The notes beneath the pieces are model-generated. The model was given only the letters and a program-made list of their open reading frames with translations. It did no database searches and was not told where the DNA came from. This document shows, in pieces, positions 28,044-32,005 of a stretch of 32,005 bases of DNA. Position 1 is the stretch's first letter. Every line of letters begins with the position of its first letter. Made by a program: the position numbers and the translations under genes. The stretch comes from Dehalococcoidia bacterium (GTDB lineage Bacteria > Chloroflexota > Dehalococcoidia > Lucifugimonadales > UBA3495), in the NCBI GenBank assembly GCA_022825745.1, contig JAJDWF010000005.1:1-32005 (forward strand), given 5' to 3'.

Positions 28044-28439
28044 TTACAGGTTCACCACCAGGTTGTCCGGCGCGCGGCACAGGATGCCCTCCTGCTCCTC
28101 GTCGTAGGGGTTCTCCTCGATATGCGGCGTGTTGGCCGGCACGAAGATGAAGTCGCCGGGGCCGGCCTCGATCCACTCCTCGAAGTTCTCGCCGAAATAG
28201 ACGCGCACGTGTCCCCGCAGCACGTAGGCGGCGGTTTCGGCCTCCAGGTGGGTGTGCGGCGGCCCCTTTTCGCGGGGCGCGGCGGTCACCTTGCCCATCC
28301 AGATCTTGGTGGTATCGCCCTTGCCGGGCACAATGGCCGGCTGGCGCACCATGCCGGGCGTCTGGATGGTCTCGGAGGCGTCGCCCACCGTATGCACCAC
28401 GTAGGGCTTGAGGCCGGTCTGCTGTTCAGTTGTCGTCAT
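28044..28439 (-). CDS. Cupin-domain protein
   Basis: A 131-residue single-domain cupin. Motif 1 is PPHTHLEAETAAYVLRGHVRVYFG, with two His and a Glu as metal ligands. Motif 2 is PGDFIFVPANTPHIEENP, with a further His. Many such proteins are sugar isomerases, dioxygenases or ligand-binding proteins, so the reaction is not assigned. ATG 28439 has AAGGAG about 9 nt upstream. It may share an mRNA with the CDGSH gene, although the hairpin between them could reduce readthrough. Confidence 0.85.
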   Translation of the reverse strand: MTTTEQQTGLKPYVVHTVGDASETIQTPGMVRQPAIVPGKGDTTKIWMGKVTAAPREKGPPHTHLEAETAAYVLRGHVRVYFGENFEEWIEAGPGDFIFVPANTPHIEENPYDEEQEGILCRAPDNLVVNL

Positions 28440-28558
28440 CGTTCTCGCTCCTTGGGTTGATGGGGCGGGTTACCCGGGTAGTTCTCCCGCATCCCGGTGT
28501 CGCCGGGTTGGATGATAAAGTCGCGGCGGTCACGATACAAGGGGCACGGCGGTGGTGA

Positions 28559-29548
28559 TTAGGTCGGTGCGTTTCCTGGGGTTGGCTCCGCAGGTTCGGG
28601 TGGTAATTCACTCATGACCCGGTCCAGGCAAGGCTGGATGACCGCATTGAATTTGGGCATATTCTTGCTCGCCCACGCTCTGATTTCGTCGAGATTTTCT
28701 TCGGGGTCTTCAATCGATCCGGGTGTTGAGATGCCGACCACAGCCTCATTTTGGCCATTCCCTCTGCCCCACCAAACTTCGGGTAATGCCTCTTCAATTT
28801 CCTGCCGATGCTGACACATCGCATCAAAAATCCGCTTGTTACGGTCCGGGTCAAAGGTCGCAACATACAGATAAATCGAAAGCACTGAATTTCCACCGCC
28901 CCAGAAGCCTAAGTGATAGTCGATGGCTGAGTAGCCGCTGGGGAACTCCTGGTCATTTGCAGGCCTAGCTATGTTGCGCTCTGCAATGTCCTGTTCGAAC
29001 AATTCGGCGACCAGCGGTCGGAAGAAATCGAGGTATCTCTGCTTATCAGGAGGATACTCGAACTCCGGCCACTCCGAGCGTTTGTCTGGTCCGGCAACCA
29101 ATTCTAATCGGCGCTTAATCGAATTGCCGTTGTGCCATGCGCTCATCTCCACGCCGTAGATTCGCACTCTATTTCCTTCATTGAGCCAGTCCATAGTGCG
29201 ACGATGACAGTCGCCAATCCTGCTGGCAACGAGGATCAAAATGCGTGAATCGCTATGCGACGCATAGTTCAACAGACCGGCGAAATGGTCGTTGTCCGAT
29301 TCTTCCATCTGGTTTTCGATGACTACGTAGTCACCGCTCCCGTCCTCCCTGGCCAGAATGTCAACTCGCCCTTGCCAATCAGACGATGGCGCTAACCAGG
29401 CCTCCTCTTGAATCAGATTCAGCTTTAGACCGATCTCTCTGCTGAGCAAGTCCATATTTTCGGCGAGCCAAGTAGTGAAGTCGGCCTCTGATGGCCAGAC
29501 GCAGCGCACGGGTATGGGCTCAAGATTGTCAGGCTCTGGCGATGTCAT
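28559..29548 (-). CDS. PD-(D/E)XK-nuclease-like protein with DUF4268-type C-terminus
   Basis: A 329-residue protein. The N-terminal half carries a restriction-endonuclease-like core: WLAENMDLLSREIG, then WQGRVDILARE (Asp63) and DYVVIENQME (Glu78, Gln80). The D...ExQ pattern is a known variant of PD-(D/E)XK. The LLNYASHSDSRILILVAS region follows. The C-terminal part has YLDFFRPLVAELFEQ and a mixed domain like DUF4268. Such proteins often lie near restriction or defence genes. Sampled G+C is about 50-58 percent against 67-75 percent in the neighbouring xdh gene, suggesting transfer. ATG 29548 has AGAGGA upstream and lies 24 nt after the HEPN-like gene, so it is the third gene of an operon. Confidence 0.75.
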   Translation of the reverse strand: MTSPEPDNLEPIPVRCVWPSEADFTTWLAENMDLLSREIGLKLNLIQEEAWLAPSSDWQGRVDILAREDGSGDYVVIENQMEESDNDHFAGLLNYASHSDSRILILVASRIGDCHRRTMDWLNEGNRVRIYGVEMSAWHNGNSIKRRLELVAGPDKRSEWPEFEYPPDKQRYLDFFRPLVAELFEQDIAERNIARPANDQEFPSGYSAIDYHLGFWGGGNSVLSIYLYVATFDPDRNKRIFDAMCQHRQEIEEALPEVWWGRGNGQNEAVVGISTPGSIEDPEENLDEIRAWASKNMPKFNAVIQPCLDRVMSELPPEPAEPTPGNAPT

Positions 29549-29572
29549 ATTGTAGTGTCCTCTTTATGCTAG

Positions 29573-29941
29573 TCAGGGTGTTCCGGCGATGCTGAGGAGC
29601 CTGTCGATGTACCGCTGCGTGGTGGGTACCAACTCCGTCAGCAGGTGGTACTCCGGTACGTTCCGGTTGTAGAAGTGGCCGTGGAGTTCTCCGGCAAACC
29701 GGAGACGGTTGCGCAGGGATATATCATGCCCATGGGCATCCACAAGGTGTTGTAGTACCGCCACTCGCCTCACCTCTTCCTTGTCACCAAGGAGGTCATG
29801 GCGAATTCCGATGGCTTGGATGACGTTGTGAACGGCGCCCCAAAGCATTTCGCCGGCTACGGCACTTCGGCCTTCCCTGAGGAAACGTTCGGACAGGGTG
29901 CGGTATTCCCGCATTATGCTGATACGCTCCTGAAAGGTCAT
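29573..29941 (-). CDS. HEPN-like protein 2, with candidate R-x5-H motif
   Basis: A 122-residue all-helical protein. The segment GEMLWGAVHNVIQAIGIRHDL and the C-terminal RFAGELHGHFYNRNVPEYHL are characteristic of HEPN/PaREP1-type proteins. R81 and H87 form the R-x4-6-H motif of HEPN ribonucleases. The assignment is by eye and not proven. ATG 29941 overlaps the TGA of the upstream gene in ATGA, so the pair is translationally coupled. A parallel layout of helices with the upstream protein suggests distant paralogs, perhaps subunits of one complex. Confidence 0.6.
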   Translation of the reverse strand: MTFQERISIMREYRTLSERFLREGRSAVAGEMLWGAVHNVIQAIGIRHDLLGDKEEVRRVAVLQHLVDAHGHDISLRNRLRFAGELHGHFYNRNVPEYHLLTELVPTTQRYIDRLLSIAGTP

Positions 29942-30294
29942 GGGGCTGCTTCCTGGTAGGAGCGGAGGAGTTTTACGAATTGGTGGACGTCCGGGACGGA
30001 GTACCGCATCTCCTCCCAGTCTTCGTAATGCCAGGTGGCGTTGCTTTGGAAGGACCGGGCGGCGAATAGGGCGACCACGTGCCAATTGTCGATGTCGCGC
30101 TTGTGTTTCACGTCCAGCCACTTGGCGAAGCGTATCAAATCGTCTTCGTCGTCGTGGGGCTGACCGTAGTGGTCGGCCAAGTCGCGTAGGGCGGCCTGGG
30201 TGGCGCGCCATAGCAGAATCGACCCCCCGTCGTGGTCTCCGAGGGAAATCGCCTGGTCGGCCAGGTCCAGCAGCTTCAAGGGATGGTAATTCAT
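29938..30294 (-). CDS. HEPN-like protein 1, without the R-x4-6-H motif
   Basis: A 118-residue all-helical protein. LLWRATQAALRDLADHYG parallels the LWGAVHNVIQAIG helix of the next protein. Its C-terminal FAARSFQSNATWHYEDW...VPDVHQFVKLL corresponds in position to RFAGELHGHFYNRN...VPTTQRYIDRLL. The Arg and His of the nuclease-like motif are replaced here. It may be a non-catalytic partner or antitoxin-like subunit; this is inference. ATG 30294 has GGGAGG 5 nt upstream and a TATAAC box at 30309-30314. It is the first gene of a three-gene operon. Confidence 0.6.
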   Translation of the reverse strand: MNYHPLKLLDLADQAISLGDHDGGSILLWRATQAALRDLADHYGQPHDDEDDLIRFAKWLDVKHKRDIDNWHVVALFAARSFQSNATWHYEDWEEMRYSVPDVHQFVKLLRSYQEAAP

Positions 30295-30319: not shown

Positions 30320-30347
30320 GTAGGGGCGAATAATCGTTCGCCCCTAC
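30320..30347. repeat. REP-like GC palindrome
   Basis: An 11-bp stem (30320-30330 with 30337-30347) with core GTAGGGGCGAA/TTCGCCCCTAC. It lies between the xdh-like gene and the HEPN operon. On the plus strand ATTTTA follows. It shares AGGGGCG/CGCCCCT with the palindromes at 19915 and 27678. Confidence 0.7.
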
Positions 30348-30375: not shown

Positions 30376-32005
30376 TCAGCCGCCGTTTTGCTCCCACAGC
30401 GCTTCCAGGACTGCGCCGGGGTTCATGGGCAGGTTGGTCATGCGCACGCCCGTGGCGTCGTGGATGGCGTTGGCGATGGCGGCCATGGGCGGCACGATGG
30501 GCACCTCGCCCACGCCGCGCACGCCGTAGGGATGCCCGGGGTTGGGCACCTCCACGACCACGGTGTCGATCATCGGCAGGTCCAGCGCGGTGGGCATGCG
30601 GTAGTCCAGGAAGCTGGAGTTCTGCATGTGCGCGTCGTCGTTGAAGAAGTATTCCTCGTTCAGCGCCCAGCCGATGCCCTGCACCGCGCCGCCCTGGATC
30701 TGACCCTCCACGTAGGACGGGTGAATCGCCGTGCCGGCGTCCTGGATGGCGGTGTAGCGCAGGATGTCCACCTTGCCGGTGTCCTCGTCCACGGCCACGT
30801 CGGCGATGTGCAGCGCGTAGGCTCCGCCCACACCGGTGGGCGACACGTTGGCCCGCCCGACGATGGGGCCGCCGGTGCCGTTGAGCCGGCCGGCCAACTG
30901 GCGGAAGGTGAAGCGCAGTTCCGGCTCCGACTTGTGCTGGATCACGCCGGCGTCGTACTCCACGTTCTCGGGGTCGATGTCCCAGATGCGGGCGGCGCGA
31001 TTGATCATCTGCTGCTTGACGTCCTGGGCCGCCTCGTAGGATGCCCAGCCGGTCTTGAAGGCCACGCCGCTGCCGCCGGTCATGGAGGTCCAGCCGATGG
31101 AGTTGGTGTCGCCCACGGCGGGGGAAACGTCCTCGGCGGCCAGGCCCAGCACCTCGGCCACGTGCATGGCGGCCACGGCGCGGCTGCCGCCGATGTCCGG
31201 CGAACCCTCCACCAGGCTCACGGTGCCGTCGGCCAATACGCTGACTATGGCGCTGGCGGGGCCGGTGCCGTTGAACCAGAAGCCGCCGGCGACGCCCCGG
31301 CCCACCTTCTTGCCCTCGGCCTCGGGCGAGCGGTCGATGGGCGCGTTCCAGTGGTCGTGCTCGCGGCCGGCCTGCACCGTCTCCAGCCAGCCGATGCTGC
31401 CGAACTGCGGGCCGGTGACGCGGCGGTCGCCCTGCCTGGCGCCGTTCTGCGTGCGGAAGTCCATCTTGTCCATGCCGATGGCATCGCAGATTTCGTCCAC
31501 CACCGACTCCACGGCGAAGGCCGCGGCCGGCGAGCCGGGGGCGCGGTAGGCCGCCGTCTTGGGGTGGTTCAGCACCACGTCCGCCGCCTCGATCTTGCCG
31601 TTCTCGATGTTGTAGCAGGACAGGGCGCACTGCGCTCCCGGGTTCACCGGCGAGCCGGGGAATGCGCCGGCCTCGTAGTACAACGCAACGTCGGCGGCGG
31701 TGATCTTGCCGTCGTTGGTCGCGCCCATCTTCACTCGCAGGTAGCCGCCGGAGGTGGGGCCGGTGCCCTCGAACACCTCGGTGCGGGACATCTGAATTTT
31801 CACCGGCCGGCCGGTCTTCCTGGACAGCACCGCCGCCACGGGTTCCAGGTACACCAGCGTCTTGCCGCCGAACCCGCCGCCGATCTCCAGCTGGGTCACC
31901 AGCACCTTGGATACCGGGAGGCCCAGGATGGTGGACGTCTGGTCGCGCACGTTGAAGTGGCCCTGGCTGCTGCACCAGAGATGCAGGGAGTCGTCGGCGT
32001 TCCAC
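30376..32005 (-). CDS. Xanthine-dehydrogenase-type molybdopterin-binding subunit (5' end cut)
   Basis: Large catalytic subunit of a molybdenum hydroxylase. The visible 542 residues start within LHLWCSSQGHFNVRDQTS and include GGGFGGKT (molybdopterin contact), AYRAPGSPAAAFAVESVVDEI, EGQIQGGAVQGIGWALNEE and the C-terminal GVRGVGEVPIVPP with the catalytic Glu. NAIHDATGVRMTNLPMNP ends the protein. The Cys of CO dehydrogenases (AYRCSFR) is replaced by AYRAPGS, so it is not a CO dehydrogenase but a xanthine- or aldehyde-oxidase-like enzyme. The N-terminal part is outside the window, as are the FAD and 2Fe-2S subunits, if separate. Confidence 0.9.
   Translation of the reverse strand, partial: WNADDSLHLWCSSQGHFNVRDQTSTILGLPVSKVLVTQLEIGGGFGGKTLVYLEPVAAVLSRKTGRPVKIQMSRTEVFEGTGPTSGGYLRVKMGATNDGKITAADVALYYEAGAFPGSPVNPGAQCALSCYNIENGKIEAADVVLNHPKTAAYRAPGSPAAAFAVESVVDEICDAIGMDKMDFRTQNGARQGDRRVTGPQFGSIGWLETVQAGREHDHWNAPIDRSPEAEGKKVGRGVAGGFWFNGTGPASAIVSVLADGTVSLVEGSPDIGGSRAVAAMHVAEVLGLAAEDVSPAVGDTNSIGWTSMTGGSGVAFKTGWASYEAAQDVKQQMINRAARIWDIDPENVEYDAGVIQHKSEPELRFTFRQLAGRLNGTGGPIVGRANVSPTGVGGAYALHIADVAVDEDTGKVDILRYTAIQDAGTAIHPSYVEGQIQGGAVQGIGWALNEEYFFNDDAHMQNSSFLDYRMPTALDLPMIDTVVVEVPNPGHPYGVRGVGEVPIVPPMAAIANAIHDATGVRMTNLPMNPGAVLEALWEQNGG

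Follow-up and report, generated by a model that had tools for sequence, protein, structure and literature searches.

Whether three small genes lodged between metabolic genes in a Dehalococcoidia (Chloroflexota) genome form one defence system, or share a site for some other reason, is the question raised by a 32,005-nucleotide stretch of DNA (hereafter, the window) from genome G000. The preliminary description of the locus proposed a single defence or toxin-antitoxin module composed of two HEPN-like proteins, P1 and P2, and a nuclease-like protein, P3. We consider it somewhat better than an even bet that the locus consists instead of two separable units, a PaREP1 HEPN heteropair and a PDC-S11-like nuclease, residing in a defence-type site of variable cargo.

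Gene layout and coding status

The three genes are co-directed, minus-strand open reading frames between xanthine-dehydrogenase-like (xdh-like) and cupin genes (Table 1), with an ATGA overlap between P1 and P2 and with P3 starting 24 nt past the P2 stop, in agreement with the layout first described. The lower G+C content noted at the outset is likewise evident, at 0.56 in the cargo versus 0.64-0.70 in the flanks. Compared with its nearest relatives (L009 and L010), the window gave dN/dS values of 0.08-0.18 for P1, 0.08-0.23 for P1 and P2 together and 0.27-0.29 for P3; because all values lie between 0.08 and 0.29, the three genes encode real proteins under purifying selection. No Rfam RNA was found close to the locus.

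Table 1. Features of the cargo site and its flanks, with positions in the window
Feature	Coordinates	Strand	Description
Xanthine-dehydrogenase-like (molybdopterin) subunit	30376..31950	-	Conserved left flank of the hotspot
REP-like palindrome	30320..30347	.	GTAGGGGCGAA-n6-TTCGCCCCTAC, on the xdh side of the cargo
P1 (U)	29938..30294	-	Motif-less HEPN-fold protein, 118 aa
P2 (D)	29573..29941	-	PaREP1-family HEPN protein (assigned by sequence), 122 aa
P3	28559..29548	-	PD-(D/E)XK-like protein with C-terminal DUF4268, 329 aa
K 3' remnant	28454..28546	-	~130-aa gene in relatives; last 28-31 codons left
Cupin-like protein	28044..28439	-	Conserved right flank of the hotspot

Fold, family and motifs of P1 and P2

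The AF2 models of both small proteins are five-helix bundles (pLDDT 94.6 and pTM 0.89 for P1; pLDDT 94.4 for P2), and their best PDB matches in Foldseek were 2q00 for P1 (TM 0.77) and, for P2, the HEPN protein 2hsb (TM 0.78) and 2q00 (TM 0.70-0.72), so that structure prediction bears out the earlier assignment of both to HEPN. The Foldseek probability was 1.00 for both proteins with E-values of just 0.01-0.03, and HEPN proteins, including MntA-HepT chains, were abundant in the list. Modest Foldseek E-values are usual with small helical bundles. The P2 profile matched a single sequence in the PDB, 2jpu/2q00 of Sulfolobus (E=0.017), which is listed as the PaREP1/8 structure by Anantharaman et al. 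2013 (PMC3710099). Judging from profile matches, P2 belongs to the PaREP1 (PF05942) HEPN family: its own score (E=5e-5, 23.6 bits) is just under the cut-off of 24.4, and 23 of its 24 same-position relatives match the family, with a best E-value of 6.5e-15. P1 had no Pfam match above chance, and PaREP1 was matched by 5 of 21 P1 relatives (best E 2.9e-10). The two profiles aligned to each other in hhalign with a probability of 99.3 (E=4.5e-20), in line with the initial suggestion of distant paralogs, and P1 is accordingly a diverged, motif-less homologue of P2. Matches to the Pfam families PigL_N, DUF1940, HpaB, PolyA_pol and TAGT were weak, all under their cut-offs, and were discarded; NCBIfam returned nothing usable.

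The preliminary description singled out an R-x5-H motif (R81/H87) in P2 only and called this HEPN active-looking. Both residues are present as stated, but R81 is shared by only 3 of 24 P2 relatives and is absent even from the 65-70% identical orthologues in L009 and L010; conservation thus rules out R-x5-H as an active HEPN motif and marks R81 as a chance residue. The invariant positions of P2 are E31, G35, H87 (24 of 24 relatives) and F90, with W34, A83 and Y91 near-invariant, and P1-type proteins keep no comparable set. The catalytic Rx4-6H motif is absent from P1, which is indeed motif-less as described, and its R is not conserved among P2 relatives. This pattern matches exactly what has been published on PaREP1/8, 'Lacks R but H is conserved' (PMC3710099), a family whose HEPNs go without the R as a rule.

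P1-P2 pairs across genomes

Among HEPN families, PaREP1 is one of the more strongly expanded. Its genes are numerous in the bacterial family of the source genome; several genomes hold at least 10 copies, and many copies are solitary. At about two dozen places in this family a P1-type gene (U) lies upstream of a PaREP1 gene (D), mostly with an ATGA overlap. The distances among U proteins and among D proteins correlate strongly (24 pairs; Mantel r 0.87, with 0 of 2000 permutations as high), a correlated divergence that would be expected from linkage alone too. In the rest of the class, 55 of 343 genomes carry PaREP1 genes. Most of the genes inspected there stand alone or form D-D tandems, so the heteropair of a degenerate and a conserved HEPN is mainly a trait of this family. 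Some U partners carry an extra N-terminal, helical-looking region of ~100 aa (L018:773-1504 and the 244-aa upstream ORF in L024), and L006:77-1504 holds a single open frame with two U-type HEPN domains, followed by a shortened D gene.

Tandem PaREP genes with a REase gene in the operon are known within PaREP1/PaREP8 (PMC3710099). The pair described here differs in being bacterial and in having a systematically degenerate upstream partner, and the accompanying nuclease is of the DUF4268 type, rather than the MNT plus DUF1626 reported there. Our literature search found no paper demonstrating a PaREP1 function and no post-2013 paper that treats PaREP1 together with toxin-antitoxin systems.

The overlapping two-gene layout and the strict U-D asymmetry invite the interpretation that the pair is a toxin-antitoxin system of its own, with P2 an RNA-targeting toxin, P1 its antitoxin and the nuclease an unrelated neighbour. 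It would also fit that U is retained where D is truncated (G014) or missing (G009), as if the toxin were lost first. MNT-HEPN toxin-antitoxin systems share the HEPN fold and the two small overlapping genes, besides the MntA-HepT chains among the Foldseek matches; in contrast to them, the locus has neither Rx4-6H nor a nucleotidyltransferase partner, MNT being absent from the three genes and none being picked out on visual reading of the listed hotspot cargo ORFs. With no DNA-binding domain in P1, and with solitary PaREP1 genes lacking U common outside the family, we consider a toxin-antitoxin pair rather unlikely.

P3, a predicted DUF4268 nuclease

Residues 172-306 of P3 match DUF4268 (PF14088; E=5.7e-11, 43 bits against a cut-off of 27), and over its whole length P3 matches the PADLOC candidate PDC-S11 (E=5.8e-49). 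In its N-terminal half, D63 is conserved in 58 of 58 homologues, Q80 in 57, and E78, H88 and Y95 in 56 each, such that D63...E78-x-Q80 constitutes a PD-(D/E)XK-like signature with Q80 where K is expected. Some active PD-(D/E)XK enzymes, such as BglII, tolerate Q instead of K. The DUF4268 part of the assignment made from the sequence is supported, and P3 is probably PD-(D/E)XK-like, its nuclease activity being predicted. The P3 profile matched no chain in the PDB; in PHROGs, P3 matched one uncharacterised family and nothing else. Because P3 and its closest relative are 92% identical in the N-terminal part and 63% in the C-terminal part, with a break near residue 180, approximately at the start of DUF4268, the protein may combine a conserved half predicted to cut DNA with a diversifying recognition half. 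GmrSD type IV restriction enzymes with DUF4268 (PMC4619093) offer a precedent for this domain as an accessory of DNA-cleaving defence proteins, although the locus has neither DUF262 nor DUF1524. Among Pseudomonas strains, PDC-S11 has been reported as commoner in those resistant to phage (90% of 10), a weak correlation (PMC10855318). In contrast to PDC-S11 as a single-gene candidate, the lineage studied here comes with a small partner, K, that the window has lost, and often with HEPN neighbours at the site. The locus that initially could not be named is thus partly nameable, as PaREP1 (PF05942) and PDC-S11/DUF4268.

A genus-wide hotspot of exchangeable cargo

Each of the genus's 13 other genomes has an orthologue of the xdh-like flank (92-97% identity), and 12 of them have one of the cupin flank (91-100% identity); in G011, the left flank at the cargo is a 51-52% paralogue of the xdh-like gene, and in G009, where the cupin was not found, the right cargo edge was placed by K. 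Between these flanks, the cargo differs among the 14 genomes, spanning 1.5-5.6 kb and comprising HEPN pairs, DUF4268 nucleases or a dCTP deaminase (Table 2), the latter assigned by a match to PF22769 (E=1.4e-34 for the copy in G010). dCTP deaminases are known to act against phages. A site that exchanges nucleases and a dCTP deaminase agrees with the defence-like character proposed earlier, a defence role being the probable interpretation, and the genus-wide hotspot links PaREP1 to both kinds of cargo.

Table 2. Cargo between the xdh-like and cupin genes in 14 genomes of the genus
Genome	Cargo
G000 (window)	Pair A, DUF4268
G008	Pair A, split PD-(D/E)XK plus DUF4268, pair B, DUF4268, K
G011	Pair A, pair B, DUF4268, K
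G015	Pair B, DUF4268, K
G014	Coiled-coil gene, U, truncated D, DUF4268, K
G012	Coiled-coil gene, U fragment, DUF4268, K
G009	Coiled-coil gene, U, fused nuclease-DUF4268, K
G017	Coiled-coil gene, DUF4268 copies, pair-B relic, DUF4268, K
G018	Fused nuclease-DUF4268, coiled-coil gene, DUF4268 copies, K
G006 and G016	DUF4268, K
G007	Fused nuclease-DUF4268, K
G010 and G013	dCTP deaminase

Synonymous divergence between the window and G008 (L009) is 0.27 for xdh and 0.60, 1.12 and 0.48 for P1, P2 and P3, respectively. Because cargo values of 0.48-1.12 exceed that of the flank, the cargo has a history different from that of its flank, and this comparison supports transfer better than G+C content alone, from which transfer had originally been suggested. 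In the alignment of the window with G008, pair A agrees at 80% and DUF4268 at 84%, and ~2.1 kb of the G008 cargo, comprising the split nuclease and pair B, is missing from the window. Since G011, too, has pair A, pair B and DUF4268, loss of pair B from the window allele is the most economical explanation.

The constant companion of the nuclease

The remnant of a fourth gene, K (~28546-28454), was overlooked in the earlier reading. K encodes a ~130-aa protein and overlaps or comes after DUF4268 in most hotspot cargoes of the genus; intact copies (L009:9456-9866, L072 and L144) represent a family with the sequence APWREAVTYRxTWPHEYVLLQKDGQ...YLFxGDYKYW...RARLYRDRRDFIIQxGDTG. The window retains the last ~28-31 residues at 81-86% identity (E down to 7e-14), and no other K copy was found in its genome; P3 dN/dS nevertheless gives no sign of decay although K is lost. 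In three other families of the class, K lies immediately before DUF4268, and in several genomes (L187, L189-L193) it immediately precedes a second kind of PD-(D/E)XK-like protein, whose motif, read by eye, is 'VESKFWAGLQPEQ'. Standing beside two kinds of PD-(D/E)XK-like protein, the unnamed K is a candidate partner of defence nucleases.

The HEPN pair also keeps close company with the nuclease, directly upstream of the DUF4268 gene (at most 24 nt away or overlapping) in five hotspot genomes and in the decayed case of G017; wherever a hotspot genome has both, the pair or its relic is immediately upstream. A second DUF4268 gene, from another clade, is followed by a HEPN pair, in reversed order, on another contig of the source genome (L108, G000 contig C114, 3229-5098). 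Together with the PaREP and REase genes noted side by side in archaea (PMC3710099), these arrangements would suit one integrated three-gene defence system in which P3 is the executor and the HEPN pair either detects infection or keeps guard over the nuclease, or in which these roles are exchanged. The co-occurrence, however, is patchy: at the same site, close DUF4268 relatives in G006, G016 and G018 have no HEPN neighbours, no HEPN gene was found within ~1.5 kb of DUF4268 at any of 29 loci from other families of the class, and most HEPN pairs are without a nuclease. On the DUF4268 tree, K adjacency requires 2 changes (13.6 on average after shuffling), whereas HEPN adjacency requires 5 (7.7 after shuffling). 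Because K adjacency changes less often on the tree and all 29 outside loci are HEPN-free, the constant companion of this DUF4268 lineage is K, not the HEPN pair. The HEPN-free loci and the tree weaken a fixed three-gene module, and the single module first proposed gives way to parts that separate in related genomes; we regard one integrated system as unlikely. Distinctly unlikely, in our estimate, is the more specific proposal that a PaREP1 heterodimer acts as the sensor or switch of the PD-(D/E)XK-DUF4268 nuclease, with K as an extra component in intact loci, an architecture that would be undescribed before. A lineage-specific PaREP1 expansion with a non-defence cellular role, found here by chance, would fit the high copy numbers and many solitary genes, but is highly improbable in view of the exchange with nucleases and dCTP deaminase at one hotspot and of a cargo synonymous divergence above that of the flank.

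Two probably separable units at one site

The reading as two separable units is supported by the HEPN folds and PaREP1 membership, by the recurrence of overlapping U-D pairs with the same asymmetry, by the exchange of cargo in 14 genomes, by the HEPN-free DUF4268 loci and by the contrast between K and HEPN on the tree; the position of the pair directly upstream of the nuclease in the hotspots and the pair on C114 count against it. The window would then present one allele of the variable cargo between the xdh-like and cupin genes. Its first unit would be a HEPN heteropair in which the PaREP1-type P2 and its degenerate partner P1, translated in overlap, form a HEPN-HEPN heterodimer; P2 may offer an RNA-binding or RNase surface, P1 may hold or regulate P2, and the heterodimer may be used against mobile elements. 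The second unit would be the PD-(D/E)XK-DUF4268 nuclease: DNA cutting is predicted for its conserved N-terminal half, and recognition of the target or trigger for the C-terminal half, which changes faster. In the window, all but the 3' end of K, the small partner it usually has, is lost. Both units would occur together because the site gathers such genes, cooperation between HEPN and nuclease being possible but unneeded. That PaREP genes occur in tandem and beside REase genes was already noted in archaea in 2013 (PMC3710099), to which the present analysis adds a heteropair in bacteria, a DUF4268 neighbour, a hotspot shared across the genus, and K. The alleles with and without the pair, and with and without K, form a natural set suited to testing the role of PaREP1.

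Other features of the site

A coiled-coil gene with a nuclease-like C-terminus (DADxI...VVEVGxTV) recurs in the cargo (L147, L154, L155, L156 and L150), and the dCTP deaminase cargo (L146 in G010, L148 in G013) has a conserved 107-aa ORF upstream, between the same flanks. An apparent HEPN-nuclease gene fusion in G017 was rejected, as a frameshifted pair-B relic there runs into DUF4268. The 28-bp palindrome on the xdh side occurs at 15 exact sites genome-wide, compared with 0 for a reversed-pattern control, and a ~55-bp stretch that holds it is repeated ahead of pair A and pair B in G008, a repeat that could serve recombination.
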